Assembly: GCF_036057275.1 (NCBI RefSeq)
Contig: NZ_CP107945.1
Location: 7,378,001 to 7,442,000 of the forward strand
Reading direction: 5' to 3'
Length of the DNA stretch: 64,000 nucleotides
From: Streptomyces sp. NBC_00390
GTDB lineage: Bacteria > Actinomycetota > Actinomycetes > Streptomycetales > Streptomycetaceae
Shown: positions 42,603 to 64,000 of the stretch, one piece after another
Numbering within the stretch: position 1 is the first letter of the stretch
Layout: each line of letters starts with the position of its first letter
The notes under the pieces: model-generated
What the model was told of the DNA's origin: nothing
Databases searched by the model: none
What the model saw: only the letters and a program-made list of their open reading frames with translations
Position numbers and translations under genes: made by a program

Positions 42603-42612
42603 GGAGACACAG

Positions 42613-43404: not shown

Positions 43405-43461
43405 ACCCCACACATCGTCGCCCCCCACGCCGACATCCGCTCGCACAGCAAGGACACCCTC

Positions 43462-45054: not shown

Positions 45055-46004
45055 TCGGACTCCGGTCCTGGGTCGCCCGGCGGCTGCTGCTCGGCGTGGC
45101 GCAGACGGCAGCCGTCGTGCTGCTCGTCTTCGCCCTCACCGAGGCGCTGCCGGGCGACGCCGCAGTGGCGCTCGCCGGCGACCAGCCCGACCCTGAGCGG
45201 ATCGCGGCCATCCGCGAGGCGATGCATCTGGACCGGCCGGCGTACGAACGCCTGGCGGACTGGGCGGCCGGGCTGCTGCACGGCGACTTCGGCACGTCCC
45301 TGGCGTCGGGGCGGCCCGTCAGCACGTACATCGCGGACGGCTTCGGGCCGACCGTGCTGCTCGCCGTGCTCACGATGGTGCTGCTGGTGCCCGCCGGGGT
45401 CGGCCTCGGTGTGCTGGCCGCCCGCCACGAGGGGCGTCTCGTGGACCGGCTCGTCAGTTCGGTGGCGCTGGGCGTGTACGCGGTCCCGGAGTTCGCCTTC
45501 GGCGTGCTGCTGGTCACCGTGTTCGCCCTGCGCCTCGGCTGGCTGCCGCCGACCGCCGTCGGCTACGGCACCGACCTGCTCGCCCACCCCGCGGCGCTGG
45601 TGATCCCCGTTCTCGTCCTGCTGTCGCGGCCGGTATGTTCGCTGGCGCGCCTGGTACGGGCGGGCATGATCGATGCGCTGGCCTCGCCGTACGTCGCCCA
45701 GGCCCGCCGCTACGGCATCTCCGGCGTCCGCATCCGTTACATGCACGCGCTGCCCAACGCCATCGCGCCTGCCGCCCAGCAACTTGCCCGCACGGTCGAC
45801 TGGTTGCTGTGCGGGGTCATCGTCGTGGAGGCGCTGTATGTGATCCCCGGGCTCGGAACGGTGCTGATGAATGCTGTCGCCGAAAGGGATGTTCCGGTGG
45901 TGCAGGGCCTCGCGGTGGTCTTCGGGCTGACCGCTGTCGCCCTCAATCTGGGCGCCGACCTGGTCGCCCACCGCTTCGCGCCGCGGGCGGGGGTGGCCGC
46001 ATGA
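45051..46004 (+). CDS. ABC transporter permease (DppB/CntB type)
   Basis: A 317-residue permease starting at GTG. It has six membrane segments, with the typical opening (GVAQTAAVVLLVFALTEALP), the P-loop-like GDAAVALAGDQPDPERIAAI and the EAA-like cytoplasmic loop YVAQARRYGISGVRIRYMHA. It forms a heterodimer with the next gene product. It overlaps the binding-protein gene and the second permease gene by start-stop sharing. Confidence 0.9.
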   Translation: MIGLRSWVARRLLLGVAQTAAVVLLVFALTEALPGDAAVALAGDQPDPERIAAIREAMHLDRPAYERLADWAAGLLHGDFGTSLASGRPVSTYIADGFGPTVLLAVLTMVLLVPAGVGLGVLAARHEGRLVDRLVSSVALGVYAVPEFAFGVLLVTVFALRLGWLPPTAVGYGTDLLAHPAALVIPVLVLLSRPVCSLARLVRAGMIDALASPYVAQARRYGISGVRIRYMHALPNAIAPAAQQLARTVDWLLCGVIVVEALYVIPGLGTVLMNAVAERDVPVVQGLAVVFGLTAVALNLGADLVAHRFAPRAGVAA

Positions 46005-46816
46005 GACACCGCGCCATGCTCGGTGCGCTGATCGTCGGCGTACCGCTCGCCCTAGCCCTGCTCGGACCGCTGTTCGCCGGAGCCCCTGGCCCACGGGCCG
46101 CCTCCTTCACCCTCGGCGGCGAACACTGGCTCGGCACCGACTTCGTCGGACGGGACGTCTGGCGGCAAGTGCTGCTCGGCGGACGGTCCGTGGTCCTCGT
46201 GGCCCTGGCCGCGACTTCACTGGCCTACCTGGTGGCCCTGCCGGTCGGACTCATCAGCGCGCTCACCCACCGGACATGGCTCGAAGAGCTGCTGATGCGG
46301 CCCGTGGACGTGCTGCTCGCCGTGCCGTCGCTGCTGATGATCCTGCTGGTGGCCGCCGTCTTCTCGCCAGGGGTGGCGGGACTCTCACTGCTTGTGGCCC
46401 TGGTCAACATCCCGGACGCCGCGCGGATCGTCCGCGCGGCCGCGGCCGAAGCTGCCTCACGCCCGGCCGTCGAAGCACTGCGCATGCAGGGCGAGACCTG
46501 GTGGCGCATGGCCGTCGGCTATGTCGGCAGGTCGATCGCGCGCACACTCGCCGCAGACGCGGGCGTACGCCTCACAGGCGCGCTCTACCTGGTGGCCACC
46601 GCGGCCTTCCTCGGCGTGGGAGTCGCGCCGGACGCCTCCGACTGGGCCGTGATGGTGGACCGCAACCGTACGGGCCTGTTCGTCCAGCCCTGGGCCGTGG
46701 TCGTCCCGGCCCTGATGATCGTCGCCCTGACCATGGGCGGCAACCTGCTCTCCGACGCCGTACTGGAAAAGACGCCGTACTGGAAAAGAGGAAACGCACG
46801 TGACCGCGGTCGCTGA
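46001..46816 (+). CDS. ABC transporter permease (DppC/CntC type), 3' end altered
   Basis: A 271-residue permease with the DppC features: a long N-terminal segment, HWLGTDFVGRDVWRQVLLGG and an EAA-like loop (AAEAASRPAVEALRMQGETW). A 17-bp tandem duplication at 46754-46787 shifts the reading frame near the C-terminus. Without it the protein would end ...LEKRKRT at a TGA (46801-46803) overlapping the next start, as elsewhere in this operon. As it is, the last residues are TPYWKRGNARDRGR and the gene overlaps the ATPase gene by 17 bp. The core fold is unaffected. Confidence 0.88.
   Translation: MRHRAMLGALIVGVPLALALLGPLFAGAPGPRAASFTLGGEHWLGTDFVGRDVWRQVLLGGRSVVLVALAATSLAYLVALPVGLISALTHRTWLEELLMRPVDVLLAVPSLLMILLVAAVFSPGVAGLSLLVALVNIPDAARIVRAAAAEAASRPAVEALRMQGETWWRMAVGYVGRSIARTLAADAGVRLTGALYLVATAAFLGVGVAPDASDWAVMVDRNRTGLFVQPWAVVVPALMIVALTMGGNLLSDAVLEKTPYWKRGNARDRGR
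46754..46787 (+). repeat. 17-bp perfect tandem duplication
   Basis: GACGCCGTACTGGAAAA occurs twice in a row (46754-46770 and 46771-46787) at the 3' end of the second permease gene. Because 17 is not a multiple of three, the copy changes the frame and the C-terminus. Confidence 0.95.
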
Positions 46817-48341
46817 GATCAAGGACCTACGCGTCGAGATCGACGGCCGCGCGATCGTCGACGGCGTCAGCTTTCAGGTCCGGCCGGGGAAGGTCACGGC
46901 ACTCGTCGGCGCGTCCGGCAGCGGTAAGACAACCACGGGCCTCGCGCTGCTCGGCGAGTACCCGGCGGGTGCCCGTGTGACTGGTGACGTACGCGTATCC
47001 AACGGCCTCGTCGGATATGTACCCCAGCACCCCGGCGCCGTCCTCAACCCCGCACGCCGGGTCGGCGCGCTGCTGCGGGACATCGCCCGCGAGCAGGGGT
47101 CGGGCCTGCCCAGGCCCGAGCGCCGGGCCGCCGCCCGAACGCGCATCCTGCACGCACTCTCGGCCGCACAGCTCCCGGAGGGCGAGTCCCTGCTTCGGCG
47201 CTATCCGCACCAGCTCTCGGGTGGCCAGCAGCAACGCGCCGTCCTGGCACAGGCACTGCTGCTCGGCGCCAGTGTTGTGGTCGCGGACGAGCCGACCACG
47301 GGGCAGGACGTGCTGACGAAGCGGCACATCGTCGACCAGCTGGCGGCGGTCGCCCGGCAGGGTGTCGCTGTGGTCCTGCTGAGCCACGACCTGGACGTCG
47401 TCCGGGCCCTGGCCGACGAGGTTCTGGTCATGCGCGGCGGCCGAATTGTGGAGGCGGCCCCCGCAGGGCAACTGTGGCTCGCACCGCGACATCCCTGGAC
47501 TGCCGAACTCCTGGCAGCAGACGGGAAGACAGACGACAGCCCGCCCGTGCGCGAAGGACACGTGGCACTCCAGGTACGTGGCCTCACCGCCCGGCACCGC
47601 GACGGCGCCCGCAGTACCAAGGAAGTGGTGCGCATCCCCGAACTCACCCTCCGCTCAGGCGAGTGCCTGGCCGTCGTCGGCCGCTCCGGAAGCGGCAAGA
47701 CAACGCTCGCCCGCTGCCTCGCCGGACTCCACCGGGACTACGCAGGTGAAGTCCTGCTCGACACCACCCCGCTCCCGCGCAGCCTGCGCGCCCGGACCCG
47801 TGAACAACTGGCCGCTGTGCAGTACGTCTTCCAGGACGCGAAGGCCGCGTTCGACGAACACCGACCGGTCCTGGACCAGGTGGCACGCACGGCGGTGCGG
47901 CTGCGAGGAGCGGACCCGCGAGAGGCTCTTGCGGAGGCCTTGAACACCCTGACCGGCCTCGGCCTCACCGAGGAGCTGGCGCGGCGCAGGCCCGGCCAGC
48001 TGTCCGGCGGCGAACTCCAACGGACCGCGCTCGCCCGGGCCCTGCTCGCCCGGCCACGGGTGCTGATCTGCGACGAGATCACCTCCGGCCTCGACACGGT
48101 CACCCGGTGCGGCCTCCTGGACACGCTCGCCGTCCTGCTGAGCGACCGACCCGAACTGGCCCTGGTCCTGATCACCCACGACCTCGACACCGCAGCGACT
48201 GCCGCCCGGATCGCCGTACTGGACGCCGGCGAGCTCATCGAGCAGGGGCCGGCACAACAGGTGCTCACCGCGCCGCGGCACGGATTCACTGCTTCACTCG
48301 TGGCAGGTTCGGCGGGTCTGGTAGCGAATTTCCGTCCCTGA
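46800..48341 (+). CDS. ABC transporter ATP-binding protein with two ATPase domains (DppDF/CntDF fusion)
   Basis: A 513-residue protein starting at the GTG at 46800, with GAGGAAAC upstream. Domain 1: Walker A GASGSGKTTTG (about 36-46), signature LSGGQQQRAVLAQAL and Walker B VVVADEPTTGQD. Domain 2 (from about 255): Walker A GRSGSGKTTLARCL, signature LSGGELQRTALARAL and Walker B VLICDEITSGLD. A single polypeptide thus replaces the two ATPases of Dpp/Cnt systems and would energise the importer formed with the two permeases and the binding lipoprotein. It is the last gene of the operon. Confidence 0.9.
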   Translation: MTAVAEIKDLRVEIDGRAIVDGVSFQVRPGKVTALVGASGSGKTTTGLALLGEYPAGARVTGDVRVSNGLVGYVPQHPGAVLNPARRVGALLRDIAREQGSGLPRPERRAAARTRILHALSAAQLPEGESLLRRYPHQLSGGQQQRAVLAQALLLGASVVVADEPTTGQDVLTKRHIVDQLAAVARQGVAVVLLSHDLDVVRALADEVLVMRGGRIVEAAPAGQLWLAPRHPWTAELLAADGKTDDSPPVREGHVALQVRGLTARHRDGARSTKEVVRIPELTLRSGECLAVVGRSGSGKTTLARCLAGLHRDYAGEVLLDTTPLPRSLRARTREQLAAVQYVFQDAKAAFDEHRPVLDQVARTAVRLRGADPREALAEALNTLTGLGLTEELARRRPGQLSGGELQRTALARALLARPRVLICDEITSGLDTVTRCGLLDTLAVLLSDRPELALVLITHDLDTAATAARIAVLDAGELIEQGPAQQVLTAPRHGFTASLVAGSAGLVANFRP

Positions 48342-50951: not shown

Positions 50952-51306
50952 GGAGACACCTGCCAGTTCCGGTGAATCGTTCCCTGTCCCGCTCCGTGGT
51001 CGTTGCCTGCCGCCGGCCGGCCGATGAGGGGGCGGGTGTGATGGCGGCATGCACAGCCTGTTCCAGTGGTCCTGCGCCGGACCAAAACCTTGGCGCCGAC
51101 GGACGGCATGGCCGGGATCCGTCCTTGGCCATATGCTCAAGGGTCGGGGAAGCTGCCCGTTTCAACCATCCGGCAGGTGTCCGGAACCACCCCCGCCGAC
51201 TGGCTGGCGCAGCTCGCCGCCCGGCCGGATTCGGTGTCGGGCACCCGCGGGGCGTCCCTCCGCGTGGTACGAATCGGACAGTGGCCCGATGGCGAGTGGA
51301 GCCCGC

Positions 51307-51972
51307 GTGATCCGGGTATTGGTGGTCGACGATGAGGCCTTGATCCGTACCGGCTTCCAGCGCATCCTCGATGCGGCGGACGGTATCGAGGTCGTGGCTG
51401 CGGTCCCTGGTGGCCAGGCGGTCCGGACGGCCCAGCAGGTACGTCCCGACGTCGTGCTGCTGGACATCCGGATGCCGGACGTGGACGGACTCACCGTCCT
51501 GGCCGGCCTCCGTCGGCTGCCGCACCCTCCGGTCGTGGCCATGCTCACGACGTTCGACATGGACGAGTACGTGGCAAAGGCGCTTCGCTCCGGCGCCGCC
51601 GGCTTCCTGCTCAAGGACACCGACCCTGAGGAGCTTCCTTTCCTGGTGCGGGCCCTGGCCGAAGGCGGCACCGTGCTGTCGTCCAAGGTCACGCGGACGG
51701 TTGTGGACGGCTATCTCGAAGCCGGCTTGCAGGAACCCGCTGCCCGCGGCCTCGGCCGGCTGACCGACCGCGAGCGGGACGTACTCGTCCTCATCGCCGA
51801 GGGACTGTCCAACACCGACATCGCCGCGCGGATGCACCTGAGCACCGGCACGGTCAAGGACCATGTGAGCGCCATCCTCACCAAGCTGGAGGTGGGCAGC
51901 CGCGTCCAGGCCGCCCTGCTCGCCGAACGGGCGGGACTTCTCAGGCCGACGCGGGACCAGGAGGGGGAATGA
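51307..51972 (+). CDS. NarL/LuxR-family response regulator
   Basis: A 221-residue response regulator. The GTG at 51307 (VIRVLVVDDE) has GGAG five bases upstream; an in-frame ATG at 51289 is possible. The receiver domain has the acidic pair D8-D9, the phosphoacceptor D53 (LLDIRMPD), T in MLTTFD and K in LLKDTDP. The LuxR HTH follows (LTDRERDVLVLIAEGLSNTD, IAARMHLSTGTVKDHVSAIL). It overlaps the kinase gene by ATGA and forms a two-component pair. Confidence 0.93.
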   Translation: MIRVLVVDDEALIRTGFQRILDAADGIEVVAAVPGGQAVRTAQQVRPDVVLLDIRMPDVDGLTVLAGLRRLPHPPVVAMLTTFDMDEYVAKALRSGAAGFLLKDTDPEELPFLVRALAEGGTVLSSKVTRTVVDGYLEAGLQEPAARGLGRLTDRERDVLVLIAEGLSNTDIAARMHLSTGTVKDHVSAILTKLEVGSRVQAALLAERAGLLRPTRDQEGE

Positions 51973-53069
51973 CCCCCCGCCACCTGCCCGCCCCGCTGCT
52001 GGACGCCGCCCTCGTCGGAGTCTCGCTGCTCGACGTCTGGGCCAACGTCGGCACCAGCGAGCCGCTACGCCTGGCCTGCGCCCTGGCCGCTGCCCTCTGC
52101 CTTGTGCTGCGCCGTCGCCTTCCGCTGCTGACTTTCCTGCTGACCCTGCCCGCAGTCATGCTCTCCGACGCGGTCTTCGCCGCGCTGGCCGCGCTGTACA
52201 CCCTCGCCTCGCTCACCCGCCGACGCACCCTCCTCACTCTGTGTGCGGTGACGTTCACGATCAGCGACATCACCTCGTGGCCGGCACCGCACTTCGACCT
52301 GCGCACCTCGACCTTGATCACTCTGGGCTACACCGGGGCGACGGCGGGCGCGGCCGTCTTTCTCGGCCAGCTCGTCCAGGCCCGGCGTGACCTGTCGCTG
52401 CGGATCGCGGAGATCTCCGAGGCGCGTGACCACGAGCGGCTGCTGACCGACCAGACCGTGCTGGCAAGGGAACGCGCGCAGCTCGCCCGGGAGATGCATG
52501 ACGTGGTCTCCCACCAGGTCAGCCTGATTGCGGTGCGGGCCGGAGCGCTCCAGGTCGGCACCCGGGACGCCGAGGTCAAGGAAGCCGCAGCCACGATCCG
52601 GCGGCTGAGCGTACAGACCCTGGACGAACTGCGGCACATGGTCAGCGTCCTGCGTGCCTCCGGCGGCCGCCCCACGGAGCTGACCCCGCAACCGTCCCTG
52701 GCCGACCTGCGGCAACTGGTCGACAACAGCGGCATCGAGGCCGAGCTGCAGACGGACCTCCCCGACGGCCTCCCCCCGACCGTCCAGCGCGCCATCTACC
52801 GCACCGTCCAGGAAGCGCTGACCAACGTACGCAAGCACGCCCCCGGCGCCACCACGACGATTCGCATGTCCCACGAGGGCGGCACCGTCCGTGTCACGGT
52901 CACCAACACCGCACCGACCCGGCGCGCTCTTCCTCTGCCCAGTGCGCACTACGGTCTGGTCGGCCTGCGTCAGCGCGCCGCGCTCCTCGGCGGAACCGTC
53001 ACCTCCGGCCCCACGGCCGACGGCGGCTACGAACTTCGCCTGGAGCTTCCGGACATGGTCGCGCCGTGA
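51969..53069 (+). CDS. NarL-type sensor histidine kinase
   Basis: A 366-residue kinase with four to five N-terminal membrane segments (about 8-135) and almost no extracytoplasmic loops, so the sensed signal is probably in or at the membrane. The HisKA_3 dimerisation domain holds the phosphoacceptor H177 in REMHDVVSHQ. The HATPase_c domain follows (VQEALTNVRKHAPGA, HYGLVGLRQRAALLGG). The start codon overlaps the regulator stop. Nearby targets are unknown; the diaminopropionate operon downstream is a possibility. Confidence 0.92.
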   Translation: MTPRHLPAPLLDAALVGVSLLDVWANVGTSEPLRLACALAAALCLVLRRRLPLLTFLLTLPAVMLSDAVFAALAALYTLASLTRRRTLLTLCAVTFTISDITSWPAPHFDLRTSTLITLGYTGATAGAAVFLGQLVQARRDLSLRIAEISEARDHERLLTDQTVLARERAQLAREMHDVVSHQVSLIAVRAGALQVGTRDAEVKEAAATIRRLSVQTLDELRHMVSVLRASGGRPTELTPQPSLADLRQLVDNSGIEAELQTDLPDGLPPTVQRAIYRTVQEALTNVRKHAPGATTTIRMSHEGGTVRVTVTNTAPTRRALPLPSAHYGLVGLRQRAALLGGTVTSGPTADGGYELRLELPDMVAP

Positions 53070-53633: not shown

Positions 53634-54683
53634 TCACAACCCGCGTCCACGATGTGGCCGGCCGGCCGGCCCGGTGACCGCGTCGACGGCGGAGGGGGAG
53701 GCCGCCAGGGAGAGGGTGTCCGGCTCGTCGGAGCTGAGCACATCGTCGCCGTACAGGCCCTTCAGCCAGTTCGACTGGTAGACGGTGTCGAGATACCGAT
53801 CGCCGAGGTCCGGCGCGATGGCCACCGCGGTGACTTCACGCTCGTCGTGCTCGGCCAGCCAGCCCATCGCGCCGCTGACCACCGTCCCGGTGGAGCCGCC
53901 GAACAGGAAACCGTGCCGGGCCAGATAGTGGCAGGCACGGATGGTGTCCGCCTCCTCGACGCGCAGCACCTCATCCACGTAGGACTCGTCGAGCAGTGGC
54001 GGCCGGATACTCATGCCGAGGCCCGGAATCATCCGGCGGCCCGGCTCACCGCCGAACGCCACCGAGCCGACGCTGTCCACGGCGATGATCCGCACCTGCT
54101 GGTGCCACTGCCGGAAGTAGCGCGCGCAGCCCATCAGGGTCCCGGTGGTTCCGGCTCCGACGAACAGCACGTCCAGTCCCGGGAATTCGCGGGCGATCTC
54201 CGGCGCCGTCCTGCGGTAGTGCGCCTTCCAGTTGCTCGGATTGGTGTACTGGCTGAGCCACACGTACCGGTCGTCGGAGGCACACAGCTCGCGGATGTAG
54301 TCGATCCGCGCTCCGAGGAAACCGCCGTTGGCCTCCTGACCGGCGACGATGTGCACCTGGCTGCCCAGTGCCTCCATCATCAACCTGGTCGACAGGTTGC
54401 AGCGAGAGTCCGTCACGCACAGGAACCGGTAGCCCTTGCTCGCCGCGATCGTGCTCAGCGCCACACCGAGGTTTCCGGACGACGATTCGACCAGGATCGA
54501 ATCCGGCGTCAGGACTCCCTCCTGTTCAGCGGTCTCCACCATCTCGATCGCGGCTTTCAGCTTGATCGAGCCGGCGAAGTTGAAACCCTCACACTTCAGG
54601 AAGAGCGGATGGCCGTAGATCGACCGGAGGTCGACGTAGAGCTCCTCCTCGTTGAAGGCATAGGGGACGGATATGACGGGCAC
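53634..54683 (-). CDS. sbnA: 2,3-Diaminopropionate biosynthesis protein SbnA
   Basis: A 349-residue CysK-family PLP enzyme starting at the GTG at 54683, six bases after GAGGAGG. The Schiff-base lysine is K41 (GSIKLK), the substrate loop is ESSSGNLG (66-73), the phosphate loop is GAGTTGT (176-182) and the pyridine-N serine is S264 in GGST. In staphyloferrin B synthesis SbnA joins O-phosphoserine and glutamate to make ACEGA, which SbnB oxidises to L-2,3-diaminopropionate. The SbnB gene lies directly upstream. The C-terminal ~35 residues after LKGLYG are low-complexity. It is the last gene of the five-gene operon. Confidence 0.87.
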   Translation of the reverse strand: MPVISVPYAFNEEELYVDLRSIYGHPLFLKCEGFNFAGSIKLKAAIEMVETAEQEGVLTPDSILVESSSGNLGVALSTIAASKGYRFLCVTDSRCNLSTRLMMEALGSQVHIVAGQEANGGFLGARIDYIRELCASDDRYVWLSQYTNPSNWKAHYRRTAPEIAREFPGLDVLFVGAGTTGTLMGCARYFRQWHQQVRIIAVDSVGSVAFGGEPGRRMIPGLGMSIRPPLLDESYVDEVLRVEEADTIRACHYLARHGFLFGGSTGTVVSGAMGWLAEHDEREVTAVAIAPDLGDRYLDTVYQSNWLKGLYGDDVLSSDEPDTLSLAASPSAVDAVTGPAGRPHRGRGL

Positions 54684-54896
54684 GGTGGCCTCCTCATCTG
54701 CAGCAGAGCACGTTCGGAACGTCCGTCCGGCCGCATACGGGCTTCTCGCTCTCAGGGGCGGGAGCCTGCGTCCCACAAGGCCGGACGGCGGAACTCTGCG
54801 TCAGTGTCGGTGGTGTCGGGCGCCCAGACGTACGGCGGCTCGACCGGTGATCTCTCACTGGGATTCCTGTACAACCCTCCAGGGCTCGCGGCCAGT

Positions 54897-55931
54897 TCAT
54901 CCGTACCGGCTCAGTTCGTGGAAGAAGTCGTCGACGACGTGCAACTCTCCGGCGCGGGCCACCTCGTCGTAGACCCACTTGCCCACGGCGAGGTCGAGGA
55001 CGCCGAGACCGAAGGGCGAGAACACCACCGTCCGGTCCGCCGGCACCGTCACCCGTCCGGCCATCACGTCGTCCAGCGTGCCGTGCAGGAAGTCCCGGTT
55101 GCCCGTGAGCTGCTCGGCCAGATGCGTCGAGGTGTCGGCCTTCAGACAGTGCTCGATGTCGTCGACGATGTTGGTCGAGGCGAGCACGATCACCGGCGCG
55201 AGGTCGCGCAGTGACACGTGCAGCACCAGTGGATGGTGTGCGAACCACGACAGGTCGCTGACGTGCGGCTGACCGGCGACGGTGGCGAAGACCACCAGGT
55301 CGCTGAGGCGGATCAGCTCCTCGGCGCTGTCGTGCACGGTGATCCTGCCGGCTGTGCCCGACTGTTCCAGGTAACAGCGGAAGCCGGCCGCGCTGTCGGT
55401 GGACAGGTCGTGCACGCCGATCTCGTCGAACGACCAGCCCGTGCCGGCAAGGAAGGTGTGGATGTAGCGGGCGATCAGGCCCGTCCCGACGAACCCGACG
55501 CGTGTCGGCCGCGGCCGGCTGCGGCTGAGGCATTCGGCCGCCGACGCCGCCGACGCGGCCGTCCTGGTGGCGCTGATGATCGAGCTTTCCAGACAGGCGA
55601 ACGGATAGCCGCTGTCGTGGTCGTTGAGGATCAGCACGGCCGAGGCCCTCGGGATGCCCGCCGTCACGTTCGCCGGGAAGCTGGAGATCCACTTCAGGCC
55701 GTCCACCCGCGTCTCTCCGCCGATCGAGGCGGGCAGCGCGATGATCCGGGAGGACGGGCGGTCGGGCAGCCGCAGGAAGTAGGACGGTGGGTTCACCGAC
55801 TGACCGGCGCTGTGCAGCCTGTAGGTGGCCTCGACCAACTCGACGATTTCCTTCTCGCGCCCCTGCAGTACGCGCTGAACCTGGGCACCGGAGATCACCG
55901 CGAACGGTGGCACAGTGAGCGGCTCGGGCAT
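54897..55931 (-). CDS. sbnB: 2,3-Diaminopropionate biosynthesis protein SbnB (ornithine cyclodeaminase family)
   Basis: A 344-residue NAD-dependent enzyme of the OCD/mu-crystallin family. The ATG at 55931 follows GGAG. Motifs: LRLPDRPSSRIIALPASIGG and GLKWISSFPANVTAGIPRAS (the substrate K in GLKWISS), the Rossmann GFVGTGLIARYI (about 145-156), and SLRDLAP. SbnB cleaves ACEGA oxidatively to L-Dap and 2-oxoglutarate. A 213-bp gap separates it from sbnA. The upstream frame is open into the dioxygenase region, but codon bias and the RBS fix the start here. Confidence 0.88.
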   Translation of the reverse strand: MPEPLTVPPFAVISGAQVQRVLQGREKEIVELVEATYRLHSAGQSVNPPSYFLRLPDRPSSRIIALPASIGGETRVDGLKWISSFPANVTAGIPRASAVLILNDHDSGYPFACLESSIISATRTAASAASAAECLSRSRPRPTRVGFVGTGLIARYIHTFLAGTGWSFDEIGVHDLSTDSAAGFRCYLEQSGTAGRITVHDSAEELIRLSDLVVFATVAGQPHVSDLSWFAHHPLVLHVSLRDLAPVIVLASTNIVDDIEHCLKADTSTHLAEQLTGNRDFLHGTLDDVMAGRVTVPADRTVVFSPFGLGVLDLAVGKWVYDEVARAGELHVVDDFFHELSRYG

Positions 55932-55963
55932 TGAGGACTCCGTGGTGAGGGAACGGATGACGG

Positions 55964-56965
55964 TCACCCTGCGGTGCCGTTCGGCGAGCAGTCGGTCAGG
56001 CGCACCGCCTCGGCCATCGCGACCAGCACCTCGCGCGGCCCTTCGAAGGGCTCCCTGCTGTGCGCGGTGCGGATGTTGTCGACGAACAGCAGGTCGCCGG
56101 CCTGCCACGGCTCGCGTGCGGTGCAGTCCTCGTAGACCTTGTTGATCAGTTGCACGACGTCCTCGCCGATGGGGTCGCCTTCGCCGAAGCGGGTGTTGAA
56201 CGGCAGTCCGTCGGCGCCGTAGACGTCCACCAGGTACTCGCGCACCTCGGGGGCCATCGTCCACTCGTTGAGGAACGCGATCTGGTTGAACCAGCAGCGC
56301 CGGCCGGTGACCGGGTGTCGCACGACGGCGCTGCGGCGCTGCCTGGTGTGCAGTCCACCGTCGGGCTGCCATTCGTACTCGATCGCGTTGGCGCGGCAGT
56401 AGTCCTCGATGGCCCCCCGGTCCTCGGTGCCGAACGCTTCGGCCAAGGACGCACCGATCTCGTCGTTGTAGCTGCGGGTGAGCATCCAGCCCTCCCGCGC
56501 GAACCGCTTGGTCAACTCGTCGGGCAGCGCCTCGAGTACGGTCGGTGAGTCGGCCACCGCGGTGGCTCCGCCCTCGGTGGGCGCACTGAGGCACGCGAAC
56601 AGCATCAGGCCGGGGAACTCGAGCCGGTAGCTCAGTTCGTGATGCATGCACATCGGCTGGTTCGGCGGCCACGTCGACGAGGAGTACACGCCGTCGGAGT
56701 AGGCCTTACGGGGGGCGAAGGCCTCCTTCTCGGCCATCGGAGCGGTGGCCAGCCGCTGAAGAACGGCACCGAACTCGGCCGCGTCGCGCAGCTCCAGGCC
56801 ACGGACCAGGACCGAGCCGCGCCCGGCGACGACGGCGCGCAGGGCTTCACGCTGCTCGCCCACCCAGGTTGCCGCGTCGGCCGTGGCCTCGACCCGCAGC
56901 ATGGGAGGTTTGCCGGGTTGTGACTCCACATCGAGCAGTGATGTCGGCAGTGAGGACGGCATCAT
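55964..56965 (-). CDS. TauD/clavaminate synthase-like Fe(II)/2-oxoglutarate dioxygenase
   Basis: A 333-residue non-heme iron oxygenase. The metal triad is visible as H108-x-E110 (MHHELSY) and H302 (NIRTAHSREPF); R311 in FEGPR should bind 2-oxoglutarate. The HxE form and the surrounding sequence are typical of amino-acid beta-hydroxylases of the AsnO/VioC type, which act on free amino acids or carrier-bound residues. In this operon it may hydroxylate diaminopropionate or a precursor. It starts 20 bp after the NRPS stop and ends 32 bp before sbnB. Confidence 0.85.
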   Translation of the reverse strand: MMPSSLPTSLLDVESQPGKPPMLRVEATADAATWVGEQREALRAVVAGRGSVLVRGLELRDAAEFGAVLQRLATAPMAEKEAFAPRKAYSDGVYSSSTWPPNQPMCMHHELSYRLEFPGLMLFACLSAPTEGGATAVADSPTVLEALPDELTKRFAREGWMLTRSYNDEIGASLAEAFGTEDRGAIEDYCRANAIEYEWQPDGGLHTRQRRSAVVRHPVTGRRCWFNQIAFLNEWTMAPEVREYLVDVYGADGLPFNTRFGEGDPIGEDVVQLINKVYEDCTAREPWQAGDLLFVDNIRTAHSREPFEGPREVLVAMAEAVRLTDCSPNGTAG

Positions 56966-56985
56966 GTGTTCCTTTCAGTCGCGGC

Positions 56986-59900
56986 TCAGGAAGAGCCCGG
57001 CCAGTCGGCGGCGCGCAGCACTGCCTTGGCCGCCTCGGTCGGACGGGTGCGCAGGAAGTAGTGGCCGCCGTCGGCGAGCTCGTGCAGGTCGACGTGCTCG
57101 GCCAGGAGCTGCCAGTCGCGGTACCGGCGCGGGAATTCCGCCGTGCTCGGGTCGTCCGCGGCAACGACCACGGTGACCGGCGCGGACAGCCGCACTGTCG
57201 GTGGGGTATCCAGCGCGTCGGCGAAATAGCGGTGTGCGGACACGCAGTCGTGCCGGAAGGCGGCGCCGACCTGCTCGGCGTGGTGCGCATCCAGCTCACC
57301 GAGCTCGGCGTACCCGCTGTCCACGGCCAGCCGTGCGGCGATCTCCGTGTTGCTCCGCTCGGCCAGCTCGGCGATGGCGGCGCGCCGGTCGCCGGCGTCA
57401 CCGAGCAGCTGCGCTCCCAGGAACACCCGCTGGACCTCTACGCCGCGCTCCTGGAGCTGCCTGGCCGTCTCCACGGCCAGTGCGGTGCCCGAGGAGTGAC
57501 CCCACAGCAGGAGCCTGGTCAGACCACGCCGGGTGATCTCGGTGACGATCTGCTCGGCCACCTGTGCCATCGGCACGAACGGCTCGCTCTCGCGGGCCAC
57601 ATCGTGACCGGGCAGCTCTACGGCGTAGACCGATATGCCGCCGGTCGGCAGAGCCCTGGCCATCGGCCGGAAGTTCACGGCGTTGCCGCCGGCACAGGGA
57701 AAGCACAGCAGGGCACCGGACTGCGCCCGGTCCGGTCCCGACAGTGACTGCAGCAGCCCGGACCGCTCGGACCTGCCGTCGACCACTGCGGCCAGATCGG
57801 CGAGGACCGGGTGACGGGTGACGTCCTTGAGGGTCACCGCACGGTCCAGGGCAATGGCCAGCTTCACTGCCGTCAGCGACGTGCCGCCGCGGTCGAAGAA
57901 GTGGTCCCGCCGTCCGATCAGGTGCTGCGGAATGCCGAGCACCTGCTCCCAGGCGTCCGCGATCCGCTGTTCGGCCGGCGTGCTCGGCGCGTGGTGGTCG
58001 GCCTCGACGACGTCGAGTTCTCCGGCGAGCGCGCTCAGTGTCTTCCTGTCGATCTTGCTGTTGGCGGTCAGCGGCAGGTCTTCCCGCCAGTGGAAGGCGG
58101 ACGGGACCATGTACTCGGGCAGCGAGGCACCCAGTCCGTCCCGGAGGACGTCGACCTCCAGGGGCTCGGGTGCGCAGTAGAAGGCCACCAGGTGTTTGCC
58201 TTGGCCGGCCCGCTCGGCGATCACCACTGCGCCGTCGCGGACACCGGGCACCCGCAGCAGGGTGTTCTCGATCTCGCCGATCTCGACGCGGAAGCCACGG
58301 ATCTTGACCTGGGTGTCCCGGCGGCCGAGGAACTCCAGCTTCCCCTCCGGCTGCCAGCGGCCGTAGTCGCCGCCCCGGTAGAGCCGCCGGCCCGCGCGGT
58401 GCGGATCGTCCAGATAGGCCAGCCGGGTGCGTTCGGGGTCGTTGACATATCCGCGCCCGACGCAGACTCCGGAGAAGACGATCGCTCCCGGGGCGCCCAG
58501 CGGAACGGGGGACAGGTGCTCGTCGACCACATAGACATGCACGTTGTTGACGGGGCGCCCGAGCGGGACCCGGTCCCCGTCCGGCACCCGGTCCATCACT
58601 TCGTGGTTCGTGTCGTCCGAGGTCTCGGTCAGCCCGTAGGCGTTGACCAGCTGGATCCTGGGCTCGGCCGTGAACCAGCGCTGGATGAGCTCCTTCTTCA
58701 ACGCCTCGCCGGTGACCGACACACACCGCAGGTCCGGCAGCTCGCGGGGGCGCTGCTCCAGACAGGAGAGCACGACATCGAGGTACGACGGCACCACCTG
58801 GAGCACGGCCACCCGGCCGTCGGTGATCTTGTCGATGAAGCGTTCGACGTCCAGGATCACTTCCTGCTCGACCAGCAGGGTCCGCCCACCGACCAGCAGC
58901 GCCGACAGCAGCTGCCACAGCGAGATGTCGAAGCACTGTGGTGCGGTCTGGGCCACCACCTGCCCCTCGCCGATCCCCAGGTCGTCGATCTTTGCGTAGA
59001 GATGGTTGAGCAGGCCCGCGTGCTCGCACATCGCACCCTTGGGCTCACCGGTGGAGCCGGAGGTGAAGTAGATGTAGGCCAGTTGGTCCGGCGCCACGCC
59101 GACGCCGGGATCACCGTCGCCGTGCTCCTCCTCGTAGGCCGTGTCGACGAAGAGTGTCCGGACCGTGGGCAGTGCGTCGAGGGCCCGATCGAGGGTGGTG
59201 GTGCTGCCTCGTTCGGTCAGTACGAGGGCGCACTCGGCGCGGGAGAGCGTGGTCGCGATGCGCCCGGCCGGGAAATGCGGCTCGATGGGCAGATACACTC
59301 CACCGGCCTTGAAGACCGCCAGGACCGCGGCCAGCCAGTCCAGGTTGCGCTCGGTCACCACTGCGACGACCCCTTCGCGGCGCAGGCCCCGGGCCAGCAA
59401 CGCGCGTGCCACCCGATTGGCACGGGCGTTGAGCTCCTGGTACGTCCACTGCCGGCCGCCGTGCACCGCCGCGACAGCGCCCGGATGCGCCCGCACACGC
59501 TGCTCGAACAACTCGTGCACCCGAAGGTCCGGCAACTCCCGGCACGGGCCCGCCAGCCCGTCGAGCTGGAACCGCAACTCCTCGGCGGACAGCAGACTCT
59601 GCCGCCCGTGCCCGGCATCGGGGTCGGCGGCGATCAGCCCCAGCGCGGCAAGGTGGTAGCCGGCGATACGGGCCGCGCAGTCGGCGTCGAGCACCTCGGT
59701 GCGGTAGCGCAGCCGCAGCCCGAGCCGGCCGCCGTGGTGCGCGAACCCCACCCACAGAGCCGTGTCCTCGGCCGGCTCACCGCCGGCACCGGCCGGATCG
59801 AGCACGGTCTCGAAGAGCGGGCCGGTCAGCCCCAGCTCGCGTCGGAGATCACCGATCGGGAAGTCCTTGTGCGACAGCAGCTCCGACTCGACCTGGTGCG

Positions 59901-60237
59901 CGCTCAGCAGCAGCGTCCGCCACGAGCCCGGATCCGTCGTCAGCCGGCACGGCAACGGCCGGCCGCCCTCCGGCGGAACGTAGCCGGTCACGACCTCCGT
60001 CTCGCCGGACAGCGCGCCAAGCACCTTCGCGTGCGCGGCCAGCAGAATCGAACTGAGCGGCACCGCTGCCTCGTCCGTCAGCCGGCGCAGCGCTTCCACC
60101 ACCTCGTCCGGGACCGCCGCCTCGTGCTCGCAGACGCCCGGCGCCGGACGGAGCGTCCACCGGGGGATCGGGGTGAAACCGCCGGCGAGGAGCACACCGC
60201 GCCAGAAGTCACGGCCGGAGTCCATGTGCGTTTCCAT
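56986..60237 (-). CDS. NRPS with partial condensation, adenylation, thiolation and thioesterase domains
   Basis: A 1083-residue synthetase; the ATG at 60237 follows GGGGAGG. Residues about 1-215 look like the C-terminal half of a condensation domain and lack HHxxxDG. The A domain (about 230-735) has A3 FTSGSTGEPKG, A5 NAYGLTETSDD, A7 YRGGDYGRW, A8 and the A10 lysine in NSKID. The carrier (about 755-825) has S787 in FDRGGTSL. The type I thioesterase (about 835-1083) has GHSSG with S915. By manual alignment to GrsA the pocket reads D-I-W-Q-S-T-A-D-D-K; two acids at the last positions before K suggest a basic side chain such as diaminopropionate. Its start lies inside the 3' end of the preceding gene. 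Confidence 0.88.
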   Translation of the reverse strand: METHMDSGRDFWRGVLLAGGFTPIPRWTLRPAPGVCEHEAAVPDEVVEALRRLTDEAAVPLSSILLAAHAKVLGALSGETEVVTGYVPPEGGRPLPCRLTTDPGSWRTLLLSAHQVESELLSHKDFPIGDLRRELGLTGPLFETVLDPAGAGGEPAEDTALWVGFAHHGGRLGLRLRYRTEVLDADCAARIAGYHLAALGLIAADPDAGHGRQSLLSAEELRFQLDGLAGPCRELPDLRVHELFEQRVRAHPGAVAAVHGGRQWTYQELNARANRVARALLARGLRREGVVAVVTERNLDWLAAVLAVFKAGGVYLPIEPHFPAGRIATTLSRAECALVLTERGSTTTLDRALDALPTVRTLFVDTAYEEEHGDGDPGVGVAPDQLAYIYFTSGSTGEPKGAMCEHAGLLNHLYAKIDDLGIGEGQVVAQTAPQCFDISLWQLLSALLVGGRTLLVEQEVILDVERFIDKITDGRVAVLQVVPSYLDVVLSCLEQRPRELPDLRCVSVTGEALKKELIQRWFTAEPRIQLVNAYGLTETSDDTNHEVMDRVPDGDRVPLGRPVNNVHVYVVDEHLSPVPLGAPGAIVFSGVCVGRGYVNDPERTRLAYLDDPHRAGRRLYRGGDYGRWQPEGKLEFLGRRDTQVKIRGFRVEIGEIENTLLRVPGVRDGAVVIAERAGQGKHLVAFYCAPEPLEVDVLRDGLGASLPEYMVPSAFHWREDLPLTANSKIDRKTLSALAGELDVVEADHHAPSTPAEQRIADAWEQVLGIPQHLIGRRDHFFDRGGTSLTAVKLAIALDRAVTLKDVTRHPVLADLAAVVDGRSERSGLLQSLSGPDRAQSGALLCFPCAGGNAVNFRPMARALPTGGISVYAVELPGHDVARESEPFVPMAQVAEQIVTEITRRGLTRLLLWGHSSGTALAVETARQLQERGVEVQRVFLGAQLLGDAGDRRAAIAELAERSNTEIAARLAVDSGYAELGELDAHHAEQVGAAFRHDCVSAHRYFADALDTPPTVRLSAPVTVVVAADDPSTAEFPRRYRDWQLLAEHVDLHELADGGHYFLRTRPTEAAKAVLRAADWPGSS

Positions 60238-62803
60238 CGGATCCTCCCCTCTGCTCACGGGCTCCACAGTGCTGTTCGCGCACCGGCGTCACGGGGTGAC
60301 CGAGGGCTTGTCGCAGCTCCGAGGCCGGGTTTCCTCCCCACGACGCGTGCGGGGGAATCTCCTCGCCCTTCATGAGGAAGGAGTCAGGCGCGAGCACGGC
60401 GCCGTCGCCCATCGTCACGCCGTAGTGGACGTGAGCGCCGACACCGAGGGTGCAGCCGCTGCCGAGCGTGGTGTGGTCGGACTTGAAGGTGCCGTCCTCC
60501 TGCGAGTGGCACTGGATCTTGCTCCCCGCATTGAGCGTGCAGCCGTCCGCGATGGCGATGAGCGTCCGCTCGGTCAGCATGCAGCCGTCGTCGAAGACCC
60601 TGCTGCCGAGCCGGACACCCAGCAACCGCCAGATCATGTTCTTGAAGGGGGTGCCGTTGAAGACGTTGAAGTACTCGACGGGCACCTTCCAAAGGCGCTC
60701 GTGCAACCAGAAGTTCGGGTCGTAGATGGAACACAACTGCGGTCGCAGTGCACGGAATGCCGTGATGACGCGTTCCACCAGTACGTAGTAGAGCGCGGTG
60801 AACACGAGGGCGAGGGCCAGGGACGCGGCGATCATCATCTGTCCGAGAGCGCCGTACAGCTCGACGGCCGCGAGGCCGAGGAGCGTGAGCACGAACAGGT
60901 GCAGCCACCGCACGAACAGGAACGCACCCATCGTGCGGATGTTGTAGCGGTTCTTCGCGGCGAGGTGGTCGCGCAGGGTGGCCCCGCCCCGCAGATGGTC
61001 GAACCGGCTGTCGCGCTCCACCGACCGGGGAATCTCGAAGCAGGGCGAGCCGAGCAGGCCCACCCCCTCGCGGACCTCGCCGTCCAGCGGAACCATCACC
61101 TTGGTCGCGAGGAGGCAGTTGTCACCCGTCTTGGCCCGCGAAGGATAGGCGATGTTGTTCCCGAGGAAGTTGCGCGGCCCGATCGATGCCTGGGACACGC
61201 AAAAGGATGTGCTCGAGAAGTCGGCGTTGATGATCGAGAGCCCGTCGGCGATCATCGTTCCGCTGCCGACATGGCTCAGGTACGGCGTCTCGTGCTGCAC
61301 TTCCGTGCCGAAGTTGGACCCGGTCTGCTCGACCTGGGACAGGTCGTAACCGAGGCCGCGCAGATAGTGGACGATGTAGGAGCTGTCGCCGAAGAGCCAT
61401 TTGAAGAACTTGATGTTCGTCATGCGTGCGATCGCCCGGTGCACGGAGTAGTGAAAGCCGTACAGCGGATAGGCCTTGTCCGGCTTGATCAGCAGGTTCA
61501 GCAGGCGGGGAACGGTGAGCAGTACGGCGAGGCCCACGATGCCGAAGCCGAGGAAGAGCGCGAGGGAAAGGACCAGCGCGTCGGTGAAGAGCTGCGGCGT
61601 GGTGATCCCCATCGCGTCGAGGCCCGGCACGTTGACCAGAGCAGGGAACACGGCCAGCAGCATGTACAGGCCGCCGACGGTCAGGGGCACGTACAGCAGG
61701 AGCACCTGGAGCACGGTGACGAGGCCGTAGCCGGCCCGGCGCAGCGTGCCGCAGCGCGCCGGCGCGACCCTCACGTAGTCGACCTCCGTGCTCTGCGCCG
61801 GGGATCCGTGCCAGTGCTGGCCGTCGGGGACCACCTGGCCGCTGTGCAGCGACGACGCGTGGCCGAGCTGCGCTCCGTCGCCCATCGACGTGTCGATGTC
61901 GAGCACGGTCTTCTCGCCGATGAACACGTCCCTGCCGAGGGTGACCGGGCCGGTCTGGATACGCCCGGCGTGCGCCCGGTAACAGAGAAGGAACGCTTCC
62001 TTACGGATCACGGTACCGGCGCCGATCGTGAGCAGGTCGGTGCAGACCGGAATGGTTCGGGAGAGGATCGTGACCCCCTTGCCGATCCGCGCGCCGAGTG
62101 CCCGCAGGTACAGCACGTACAGCGGATTTCCGACGAAGAAGATCATCGGGTTGGCGTGGACCAGTGCCTTGACGGTCCAGAAGCGCAGATAGGTCAGACC
62201 CCAGACCGGGAAGTCGCGGGGCTTCCACCGGCCGATGAGGATCCATTTGGCCACGATCGGAAACGTGCACAGGCCGACGAAGCCGATGCCGCCGAAGACG
62301 ACGGAGCGGAGGTAGATGTCGGTGACACCTGAGCCGGCGGAGACCCACTCGTAGCCTCGGGCGACGACAATTCCGGAGAGGTAGCAGTATCCGACGAAAA
62401 TCAGCAACTGCAGTGTTCCGCAGAGGGCGTACCGCAGTGTGCTTGCCGGTGCCACTGCCTCGGTCGACAGCGGGACCGGCGTCTCGACGGGGGTGGGCGC
62501 GGCATCCTCGAAGGCCGTTGCCAGGCTACGGATCGTCGGGTTCCGGTAGATGTCCTTCATCGACACCGACGGCAGGTCCCCCCGCTTCCTGACCCGTGCA
62601 CAGAATTGGGCCATCACCAGCGAGTTGGCGCCGAGGTCATCGAAGAAGTGGCCGTCGACCGGCACCTGCTCGATGCACACGACATCAGCCAGCACATCGG
62701 CGAATTCTCTTTCGATGCCGGTCTTCGGGCCGGTGTATCTGCGTTTGGTGATTGCAGATTCATCCGGCCCGGGCGTCAAGACTTCGACGGAATTTTCCTC
62801 CAT
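60209..62803 (-). CDS. Carrier protein fused to Pls/PosA-type membrane synthetase domain
   Basis: An 864-residue protein. Residues about 25-100 are a carrier domain with S61 in DDLGANSL. About six or more membrane segments then alternate with soluble domains containing left-handed beta-helix hexapeptide repeats (GARIGKGVTILSRT, IGAGTVIRKEAF, TLGRDVFIGEKTVL; a second set near 490-560; a third near 745-825, GSGCTLGVGAHVHYGV). This matches the C-terminal membrane part of epsilon-poly-L-lysine synthetase, in which tandem domains carry out iterative peptide bond formation. No adenylation domain is present; the NRPS downstream supplies it. It is the first gene of the operon. Confidence 0.85.
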   Translation of the reverse strand: MEENSVEVLTPGPDESAITKRRYTGPKTGIEREFADVLADVVCIEQVPVDGHFFDDLGANSLVMAQFCARVRKRGDLPSVSMKDIYRNPTIRSLATAFEDAAPTPVETPVPLSTEAVAPASTLRYALCGTLQLLIFVGYCYLSGIVVARGYEWVSAGSGVTDIYLRSVVFGGIGFVGLCTFPIVAKWILIGRWKPRDFPVWGLTYLRFWTVKALVHANPMIFFVGNPLYVLYLRALGARIGKGVTILSRTIPVCTDLLTIGAGTVIRKEAFLLCYRAHAGRIQTGPVTLGRDVFIGEKTVLDIDTSMGDGAQLGHASSLHSGQVVPDGQHWHGSPAQSTEVDYVRVAPARCGTLRRAGYGLVTVLQVLLLYVPLTVGGLYMLLAVFPALVNVPGLDAMGITTPQLFTDALVLSLALFLGFGIVGLAVLLTVPRLLNLLIKPDKAYPLYGFHYSVHRAIARMTNIKFFKWLFGDSSYIVHYLRGLGYDLSQVEQTGSNFGTEVQHETPYLSHVGSGTMIADGLSIINADFSSTSFCVSQASIGPRNFLGNNIAYPSRAKTGDNCLLATKVMVPLDGEVREGVGLLGSPCFEIPRSVERDSRFDHLRGGATLRDHLAAKNRYNIRTMGAFLFVRWLHLFVLTLLGLAAVELYGALGQMMIAASLALALVFTALYYVLVERVITAFRALRPQLCSIYDPNFWLHERLWKVPVEYFNVFNGTPFKNMIWRLLGVRLGSRVFDDGCMLTERTLIAIADGCTLNAGSKIQCHSQEDGTFKSDHTTLGSGCTLGVGAHVHYGVTMGDGAVLAPDSFLMKGEEIPPHASWGGNPASELRQALGHPVTPVREQHCGAREQRGGSDGNAHGLRP

Positions 62804-64000
62804 GCGAGCTCCCTGAGGAAATATCGACCACCACCGGCCGCCGCGGCCGGCGTCCTGTCCTCGCGCTCGTCGGTGGCCGGAGCGGGTAATCCGGAAGTCA
62901 CGAGGTCGTGAGCTCTTGTCCGGCCACAAATTTCTGACTCCAGTCTCCGCCGTCCACCGTCGGGTTGCCACTCGAAGGCGATTACGTCCTCGAGTGGGAT
63001 CTGACGCCGAATCCGCTGTGCAGTAGAAGCAGCTGCGCTGTAAAAGCAGTGGACGGCATGGCGGTCCACGATCCGCCGCGGTGGCGGCCGCGTGGATGTC
63101 GGCGAACCGCCGGTGACCTCCGCCGACGTGCCGCCCGGATCCGTCCGTTCTCGGCAGCCGTCCGCTGGTCGGGGCGGTGGGCGAGGGTGGGGCGGAACCG
63201 GGTGTGCACGGCCATGTGCATCGGGGTGGGGAACACGGCGTCGCTGCGGGTGGCGTGCGCGTACGGAAAGTGGCACAGTCGTGATCGGCCGCGCGTGCCA
63301 TGAGCCGCTCCGGCAGGTCCGCGAGGGCCGACCGGCTGTGCGAGCACAGGGCGTCCATGCCCGGCGACGGAAGGTGATCAGCCGCTGCCGGCCGCTTCGC
63401 CGCTTCAGGGCGTGCCCTGCTCTTCCGGCGTTGTCCTGCAGCCGGGAGGCGCCGCGCCCTTATGGCGCGGAAGCGCGCCCTGCCCCCACCGCCGGGGCGT
63501 ACTCTCCGCCCCCGTCGCGTGACACCTCGTCATCGACGCGTTCATACACCGGGATCCGGTCCGGATCAGCGTGAACTCTCCGTCTGTGCAAGCGGTCTGA
63601 GACCGGCTGTCACGCCCCGCGCGCGGTAGGCGGCACCCGGTGCTGCTCCGCCGTGCCGTGTCCACCCGCACGTCCCGGTGCTCGCACAGCGGCTCGTCCG
63701 GCCCGGACGAGCCGGGAAGGACGGGGCTTCACACTGTGTGCGTCACGGCAGCACGTCGTGACCACCCGTCCTCGGCGTCATCGTCCGTGTCGCCCCGGCC
63801 CCCGCTGAACGATGAGTTGACGGCGAGCGCCTGCAGGGTGGGCAGCCACTGGCGTGCTCATCTGGTCAGGCCCAGGTCCTGCGTGCTCTGCAGGTGTATC
63901 CGGAGCCCACTGGCTCCACCAGGGTCATGCGGCGGGTCTGCCCCGCGCCTCAATGGGCACACAGGTGGTCGGCCCAGGACCGGGAACAAATTCGTCCGAC
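62804..64000. other. Region upstream of the diaminopropionate/NRPS operon without recognised genes
   Basis: About 1.2 kb. Open frames on both strands lack family likeness and good codon bias. It should hold the operon promoter. GTAGAAGCAG and GTAAAAGCAG recur near 63023-63050, and a 7-bp stem hairpin lies at 63452-63470. No iron box of the DmdR type was noticed. Confidence 0.45.

Follow-up and report, generated by a model that had tools for sequence, protein, structure and literature searches.

A five-gene Streptomyces cassette for the probable synthesis of oxidised diaminopropionate chains, oligomeric or polymeric, by a machinery divided between two proteins

The window analysed here, a stretch of 64,000 nt (positions 7378001–7442000) from the main contig of the 8.69-Mb genome of Streptomyces sp. 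NBC_00390, contains a minus-strand operon of five genes at 53634–62803 whose product is probably an oligomer or polymer of oxidised L-2,3-diaminopropionate (Dap), assembled on a line split over two proteins. In order of transcription, the genes encode T-Pls, a carrier (T) joined to a Pls-type membrane condensation domain; a nonribosomal peptide synthetase (NRPS) with adenylation (A), carrier and thioesterase (TE) domains, here A-T or A-T-TE; a TauD-type dioxygenase; SbnB; and SbnA. From family membership, SbnA and SbnB would supply L-Dap, which the A domain would activate and load onto the NRPS carrier (T2) in cis and onto the T-Pls carrier (T1) in trans, unless T2 passes its load to T1. The dioxygenase would then hydroxylate or desaturate the carrier-held Dap, as suggested by the dapdiamide enzyme DdaC and by its co-occurrence with A-T, and the Pls-type domain would link the units at the membrane through amide or isopeptide bonds into a short cationic chain. 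The TE might clear or release chains, and would be optional because several cassettes lack it. As a whole, this scheme of Dap loaded on two carriers, oxidised there and joined by T-Pls has, in our estimate, just short of an even chance of being correct.

Organization and conservation of the cassette

The features of the operon are as follows.

60209–62803, minus strand: T-Pls, 864 aa, in which a free-standing carrier is joined to a Pls/PosA-type membrane condensation domain (TIGR02353, PP-binding)
62513–62701, minus strand: carrier T1 of T-Pls (PF00550), in a chain without an adenylation domain
60323–62425, minus strand: Pls-type terminal domain (TIGR02353)
56986–60267, minus strand: NRPS, 1093 aa, with a degenerate condensation-like stretch, A, T and TE (Pfam); the length assumes a start at the first GTG, which is uncertain
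58054–59508, minus strand: adenylation domain, pocket code DIWQSTADD (Pfam, and code extraction by alignment)
57784–57969, minus strand: carrier T2 (PF00550)
56989–57711, minus strand: thioesterase domain (PF00975), not present in some related cassettes
55964–56965, minus strand: TauD-type Fe(II)/2-oxoglutarate dioxygenase, 333 aa (PF02668), with H108, E110, H302 and R311 kept
54897–55931, minus strand: SbnB, second enzyme of L-Dap synthesis (TIGR03944)
53634–54683, minus strand: SbnA, first enzyme of L-Dap synthesis (TIGR03945), GTG start picked by homology

The first-pass annotation of this DNA had named SbnA and SbnB as the source of L-Dap, which holds at the level of protein family: the two genes are adjacent and both exceed their NCBIfam equivalog models (SbnA, 384 bits against TIGR03945, cut-off 350; SbnB, 416 bits against TIGR03944, cut-off 327), as expected of an L-Dap synthase pair. 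We likewise recovered the NRPS with A, T and TE that it described, as Pfam domains of the 1093-aa protein, the carrier joined to a Pls-type membrane condensation domain (PF00550; TIGR02353, 884 bits against a cut-off of 423), and the division of functions between two polypeptides that both bear a single carrier, T1 in T-Pls and T2 in the NRPS. Unmentioned there was a condensation-like segment spanning N-terminal residues 13–97 of the NRPS, scoring 20.5 bits and thus under the Pfam cut-off of 30.6. Consecutive genes overlap or are separated by 20–32 bp, except for 213 bp between sbnB and sbnA, and there are no TTA codons across the five genes. We set the T-Pls start at the ATG at 62803, the listed 1049-aa open reading frame (ORF) being an upstream extension of the frame; in 31 relatives the protein measures 808–878 aa from the start of the match to the first stop. 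A two-component system (51049–53069) converges on the operon.

Conservation was examined in two sets with some species in common, the best 80 of 128 relatives and 40 further congener loci. All five genes occur in one order in 74 of the 80 relatives; five of the six exceptions run into a contig end and the sixth (L108) is a T-Pls alone. Among the 40 congener loci, 31 are complete, 27 in the same order and four with sbnA divergent, and the nine incomplete ones comprise five single-chain enzymes, two T-Pls genes alone (L042, L055), a locus that begins at a contig end (L063) and L073, discussed below. The operon is a genuine gene set, its linkage being far beyond chance because the order is kept in 74/80 relatives and 27/40 congener loci. 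The TE is missing from 15 of the 105 complete cassettes (10/31 and 5/74, in overlapping sets). Outside Streptomyces, the larger set includes cassettes from Kutzneria sp. 744 and Actinomadura rudentiformis, and a partial copy in a metagenome-assembled genome labelled Rokuibacteriota. Additionally, 16 of 394 genomes drawn from the class contain a T-Pls-like match, three of them from other genera: L213 is a single-chain enzyme, and the other two have the cassette, one of these cut at a contig end, with identities of 48–49% for T-Pls, 59–60% for A-T and 73% for SbnB. Both of the latter genomes hold one further T-Pls without partners (L210, L211).

A survey of 295 congeneric genomes, restricted to rows of at least 51% identity, yielded 126 copies of split-type T-Pls in 102 genomes, the split type being assigned by identity of at least 56% and the stop not confirmed individually; five rows were put aside as single-chain by frame length and three short partial rows (G260:C202, G142:C167, G139:C665) were dropped. 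Split-type T-Pls is thus present in about one third of the sampled Streptomyces genomes, and nearly every copy adjoins an A-T of this kind, which lies within 1.5 kb of 113 of the 126. Besides the window cassette, the host carries another one without TE (L041) and a solitary T-Pls (L042), and its only two SbnA matches above cut-off are those of the two cassettes. We found no description or product of the cassette in searchable papers, closed-access work being outside our scope, nor any paper pairing non-alpha poly-amino acids (NAPAA) with diaminopropionate; as far as the searchable literature shows, the cassette is very widespread and uncharacterised. It also seems self-contained, because among 41 loci processed with a simple gene caller the commonest family outside the five genes occurs in 10 loci and appears to be a spurious ORF on the strand opposite sbnB, and the next commonest occurs in 8.

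Probable monomer activation and oxidation, and the pairing of T-Pls with A-T

Alignment-based extraction gave the pocket letters DIWQSTADD for the window A domain and, applied to Escherichia coli EntF, DVWHFSLVD, which we take to be the serine code. DIWQSTADD is found in 110 of 111 A domains of at least 59% identity (from overlapping locus sets), the remaining one being DIWQSTTDD. The pocket resembles a small, serine-like one with one extra acid, which would suit the ammonium group of Dap, and we consider Dap very likely to be the substrate. Synthetases of cationic homopolymers are described as having a conserved Asp and Glu in the pocket, with Phe and the conserved Glu in the poly(L-diaminopropionate) (PDAP) synthetase (PMC10522769, available portions), whereas the window domain has Asp and Trp at the positions of Asp and Glu, and Ile and Trp where the PDAP enzyme has Phe and Glu. 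Because of this departure from the reported Asp/Glu rule, and from the single-chain enzymes, whose codes begin with DFEC, DFEA, DAES or, in Pseudonocardia, DLER, the window A domain is, judged from its pocket residues, of another lineage than the cationic homopolymer synthetases. The near-invariant code is a testable signature for Dap activation.

That T-Pls acts jointly with A-T we hold with high confidence. Joint action of T-Pls, A, T and TauD is indicated most directly by the sequence of locus L074, a natural 2327-aa frame that fuses the four in a domain order different from that of single-chain Pls/PosA enzymes. Eight of the 13 T-Pls copies without an adjacent A-T in the survey point the same way. 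One of the 13 (G262:C139) is a contig break, its A-T running to the contig end (L116); the other 12 comprise eight solitary copies, three with TauD and another A protein (L220, L222, L223), and L224, where T-Pls is accompanied by SbnB, SbnA and a mere remnant of A-T. None of the four partner genes lies in the 17–18 kb fetched around each solitary copy, and all eight genomes hold a T-Pls/A-T pair elsewhere (in G262, the contig-break pair), as trans-loading of T1 would predict; given 102/295, eight of eight has a hypergeometric probability of 1.7e-4, a figure that ignores relatedness and duplication. Several T-Pls copies without an adjacent A-T (L218, L222, L223, L225, L226) carry two to four tandem carriers, four in L223. 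Fusions of T-Pls with A-T hinted at by open-frame lengths in L056 and L063 were rejected, a stop ending T-Pls before A-T.

T-Pls keeps S61, Q764, H766, E769 and K774 in ten split and single-chain sequences, across which 78 positions are invariant, even with the distant L080 (~29% identity) included. Its structural model, of low confidence (predicted local distance difference test, pLDDT, 59.4), has three pairs of long helices. A quick tree placed the single-chain enzymes outside the split clade, except for two Pseudonocardia plasmid proteins (L184, L190), which fall inside it with a support of 90 together with L072 and L075.

The dioxygenase has the HxE...H triad and the Arg of the TauD fold (H108, E110, H302, R311), invariant in 33 orthologues and aligned with those of DdaC, to which it is 33% identical over 304 aa; its AlphaFold model (pLDDT 83.5) retrieves TauD-fold matches, the best in Foldseek being 1y0z (template modelling score 0.76 on the query). 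The first-pass annotation had called it an added dioxygenase, and while its presence is clear (PF02668), it is no mere addition, as it recurs with A-T where there is no T-Pls. Of 142 A-T matches listed, 29 have no T-Pls beside them, one of which (G262:C104) is a contig break. Of these we fetched 20 stretches, several of them inside NRPS clusters; TauD is present in 17, an SbnB match in 10 and an SbnA-like gene in 19 (nine at 58% identity or more and ten at 30–37%), and the pocket code is DIWQSTADD in 18 and DIWQATCDD in two. The A-T/TauD unit thus seems to be a module that several consumers draw on, T-Pls among them. Because TauD, A-T and an SbnA-like gene recur without T-Pls, the dioxygenase would appear to serve the monomer, which may well be an oxidised Dap, and we regard oxidation on the carrier as likely.

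Some of these T-Pls-free loci have contents of their own. In L167–L170, L178, L179 and L182, an A-T-TE of the same pocket code lies in clusters with a weakly SbnA-like gene, accompanied in L182 by an argininosuccinate lyase-type lyase, an ATP-grasp ligase and a GHMP kinase, a gene set that could perhaps provide a second route to Dap. In L172, A-T, TauD, SbnB and SbnA adjoin a halogenase of the flavin type (PF04820) and what by eye is a cytochrome P450, and a halogenated, Dap-containing product is possible.

Relation to known systems and alternative products

In its likely workings the cassette most resembles Pls combined with dapdiamide-type logic, and we assign it to neither class. Compared with single-chain Pls/PosA enzymes (L076–L080, L213 and those of Paenarthrobacter, Skermanella and Shinella), T-Pls is 43–54% identical over the carrier and terminal domain (~29% for L080), but these enzymes have the A domain fused in one polypeptide, with codes DFECLSVVT, DFEALGTVT, DFECLSASA or DAESIGT. 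A member of the Pls/PosA class would be expected to have A, T and terminal domain in one chain and no thioesterase, whereas in the window A, T and the terminal domain lie on separate ORFs and the NRPS contains PF00975. We found no TauD match in L076–L080, and none is annotated beside the Pls genes of Paenarthrobacter, Skermanella and Shinella. A further case is L190, on a Pseudonocardia plasmid, with a single-chain Pls next to a TauD gene (50% and 56% identical to the window proteins, respectively, the former over the Pls part), a fused A domain of code DLER-STTT and three carriers, and neither SbnA nor SbnB in the stretch. Extra carriers in a plasmid Pls adjoining a TauD gene are seen in both L190 and L184, and in the ant-derived Pseudonocardia EC080619-01 an AMP-binding ORF is annotated apart from Pls, perhaps via a frameshift.

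The first-pass annotation had cited the PDAP system of Streptomyces albulus PD-1 as an A-T-TE enzyme with a Pls-like part, a precedent that did not survive comparison. In the accessible part of its description, the PDAP synthetase is a single 4338-bp ORF with A, peptidyl carrier protein, seven transmembrane helices and three tandem domains, without a TE, and the Dap genes are located away from it (PMC4668381). Both systems share the Pls-type terminal domain and L-Dap from SbnA/SbnB homologues; that of PD-1 differs in its one polypeptide, lack of TE and distant Dap genes, and no dioxygenase is mentioned in those same portions (PMC4668381). As an unverified lead, the near-consecutive numbers of PD-1 NjxB (EXU92121.1) and one NRPS (EXU92123.1) hint at an SbnB-X-NRPS group.

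By analogy, the nearest logic is that of dapdiamide, with a Pls-type membrane protein apparently replacing the ligases. Two Pantoea plasmids carry, in dapdiamide order, genes for an sbnA-type enzyme, sbnB, a TauD dioxygenase, an NRPS, an alpha/beta hydrolase, an ATP-grasp enzyme, ddaG and asnB, so that SbnA, SbnB, a TauD-type dioxygenase, A-T and a hydrolase or TE occur together in both systems (identities of 44%, 44% and 33% for SbnA, SbnB and the dioxygenase). The A domain of DdaD is 30% identical to that of the window, with code DSEDIGVIN, and the dapdiamide cluster lacks a Pls protein. Three enzymes that it does encode, the fumarate ligase DdaG, the ATP-grasp DdaF and an AsnB-type enzyme, were found neither in the window operon nor among the recurrent flanking families. 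DdaC is described as working on a Dap derivative tethered to the carrier of DdaD (PMC12451424, available portions).

Several observations speak against the proposed scheme. Our literature search for the code DIWQSTADDK gave no match, so the Dap specificity rests on context. In L220, L222 and L223, T-Pls and a TauD of 73–74% identity accompany a free-standing A protein of another type (code DASVATMRS), and neither SbnA nor SbnB is present in those stretches, so a second monomer may also be used by this pair. In L073 we found T-Pls with A-T, TauD, SbnA and SbnB being missing from the fetched stretch, and the ten weak SbnA-like genes of the T-Pls-free loci may be ordinary cysteine synthases or belong to a second route. 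The cassette contains no acyl ligase, and neither an exporter nor a phosphopantetheinyl transferase is among the recurrent neighbours in the 41 loci. On chemical grounds, hydroxylation of a free-amine Dap at the beta carbon would yield an unstable hemiaminal, and the epoxidation by DdaC takes place on the fumaramoyl moiety rather than on the carbons of Dap.

A polymeric product is, in our judgement, about an even bet, and three other outcomes have to be weighed against an oxidised Dap chain. The chain could be an unoxidised Dap polymer, linear or comb-like, in which two carriers serve two kinds of bond, the dioxygenase introducing a minor change or working on the completed chain. The host also holds a single-chain Pls (L208, G000:C1:1054000–1066000) whose code, DAESIGTVV, leads us to read it as the epsilon-polylysine type, in line with this proposal; the recurrence of TauD with A-T in 17 of 20 T-Pls-free stretches, where it seems to serve the monomer, makes it rather unlikely. 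T-Pls could instead pass the activated and oxidised Dap on to an acceptor other than Dap (a lipid, a wall polymer or a small molecule, for instance), giving a conjugate. This would agree with the hexapeptide-repeat acyltransferase-like C-terminus of T-Pls, with the esterification of chains with alcohols described for Pls itself (PMC9606270, in part) and with two partnerless T-Pls genes on Streptomyces plasmids (L161, L162), ~10 kb or less from genes for the transport of metals or resistance to them (CopC with cation diffusion facilitators; a P-type ATPase), which suggest other uses. However, the characterised relatives known to us polymerise (PMC10522769, available portions) and no acceptor-making gene recurs adjoining the cassette in the 41 loci, and we consider a conjugate unlikely.

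A-T-TE plus an oxygenase is a known route to free modified amino acids, and an alpha/beta hydrolase is present in dapdiamide clusters, so the TE could free an oxidised Dap amino acid or dipeptide as an antimetabolite, T-Pls being merely a membrane carrier or transfer protein. The TE-less cassettes (15/105) and the conserved core of T-Pls argue against it, and we find it very unlikely. The enamide of enamidonin was dropped as a lead, there being no dioxygenase in the part of its description available (PMC11204786).

The oxidised Dap chain can also be extended, more tentatively and with more doubt than belief on our part, to a class of membrane-bound multi-carrier lines making a homopolymer or oligomer of oxidised Dap, in which one A-T charges several T-Pls proteins across the genome and many cassettes have their own promoter. 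If true, a backbone of beta-hydroxy or dehydro Dap would be one not described in searchable papers, and Pls-type polymerisation would be uncoupled from the A domain and coupled to carrier-bound oxidation, a new polymer chemistry in a compact five-gene system for study.

Promoter-like element and a neighbouring gene run

A pattern search revealed a bipartite, promoter-like element upstream of T-Pls.

62942–62973, minus strand: promoter-like bipartite element GAGTGGCA-N19-AGACT

The pattern GAGTGGCA-N17-21-ARACT has one occurrence each in 39 loci of the 80-locus set, always on the coding strand, 68–192 bp upstream of T-Pls and with a spacing of 19 or 20; elsewhere in the 1.69 Mb of the 80 loci, and in one round of shuffling, it was not found. 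The host genome contains it (N18-21) twice, once at the window site, and the reversed-pattern control also occurs twice, so that the genome count is weak and the position strong. A weight matrix built from 37 sites of spacing 19 was positive in 57 of 79 upstream regions, training loci included, and three (L092, L094, L097) of the 22 under threshold fit the exact pattern with spacing 20. Matrix scores also exceeded those of shuffled sequence before the partnerless T-Pls of L055 and L108, and did not before those of L042, L161, L162, L210 and L211. The element was not found in nine of the ten TE-less cassettes of L041–L080 (the exception being L057), in the five TE-less cassettes of the 80-locus set, in L076–L079, or in some TE-bearing cassettes (L050, L064, L072 and several of the 80-locus set). 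Consensus boxes for iron, zinc, phosphate and arginine regulators, sought upstream of T-Pls in 39 regions, gave means about those of shuffled sequence.

Elsewhere in the window, on the plus strand, a run of genes at 37108–48341 comprises, by eye, an ATP-grasp protein, an SbnA-like enzyme whose score of 238.6 bits falls short of the 350-bit cut-off, an enolase-like enzyme, a major facilitator superfamily protein, a methyltransferase and an ATP-binding cassette transporter for peptides or metals, and is possibly an opine- or ethylenediaminedisuccinate (EDDS)-type metallophore cluster.

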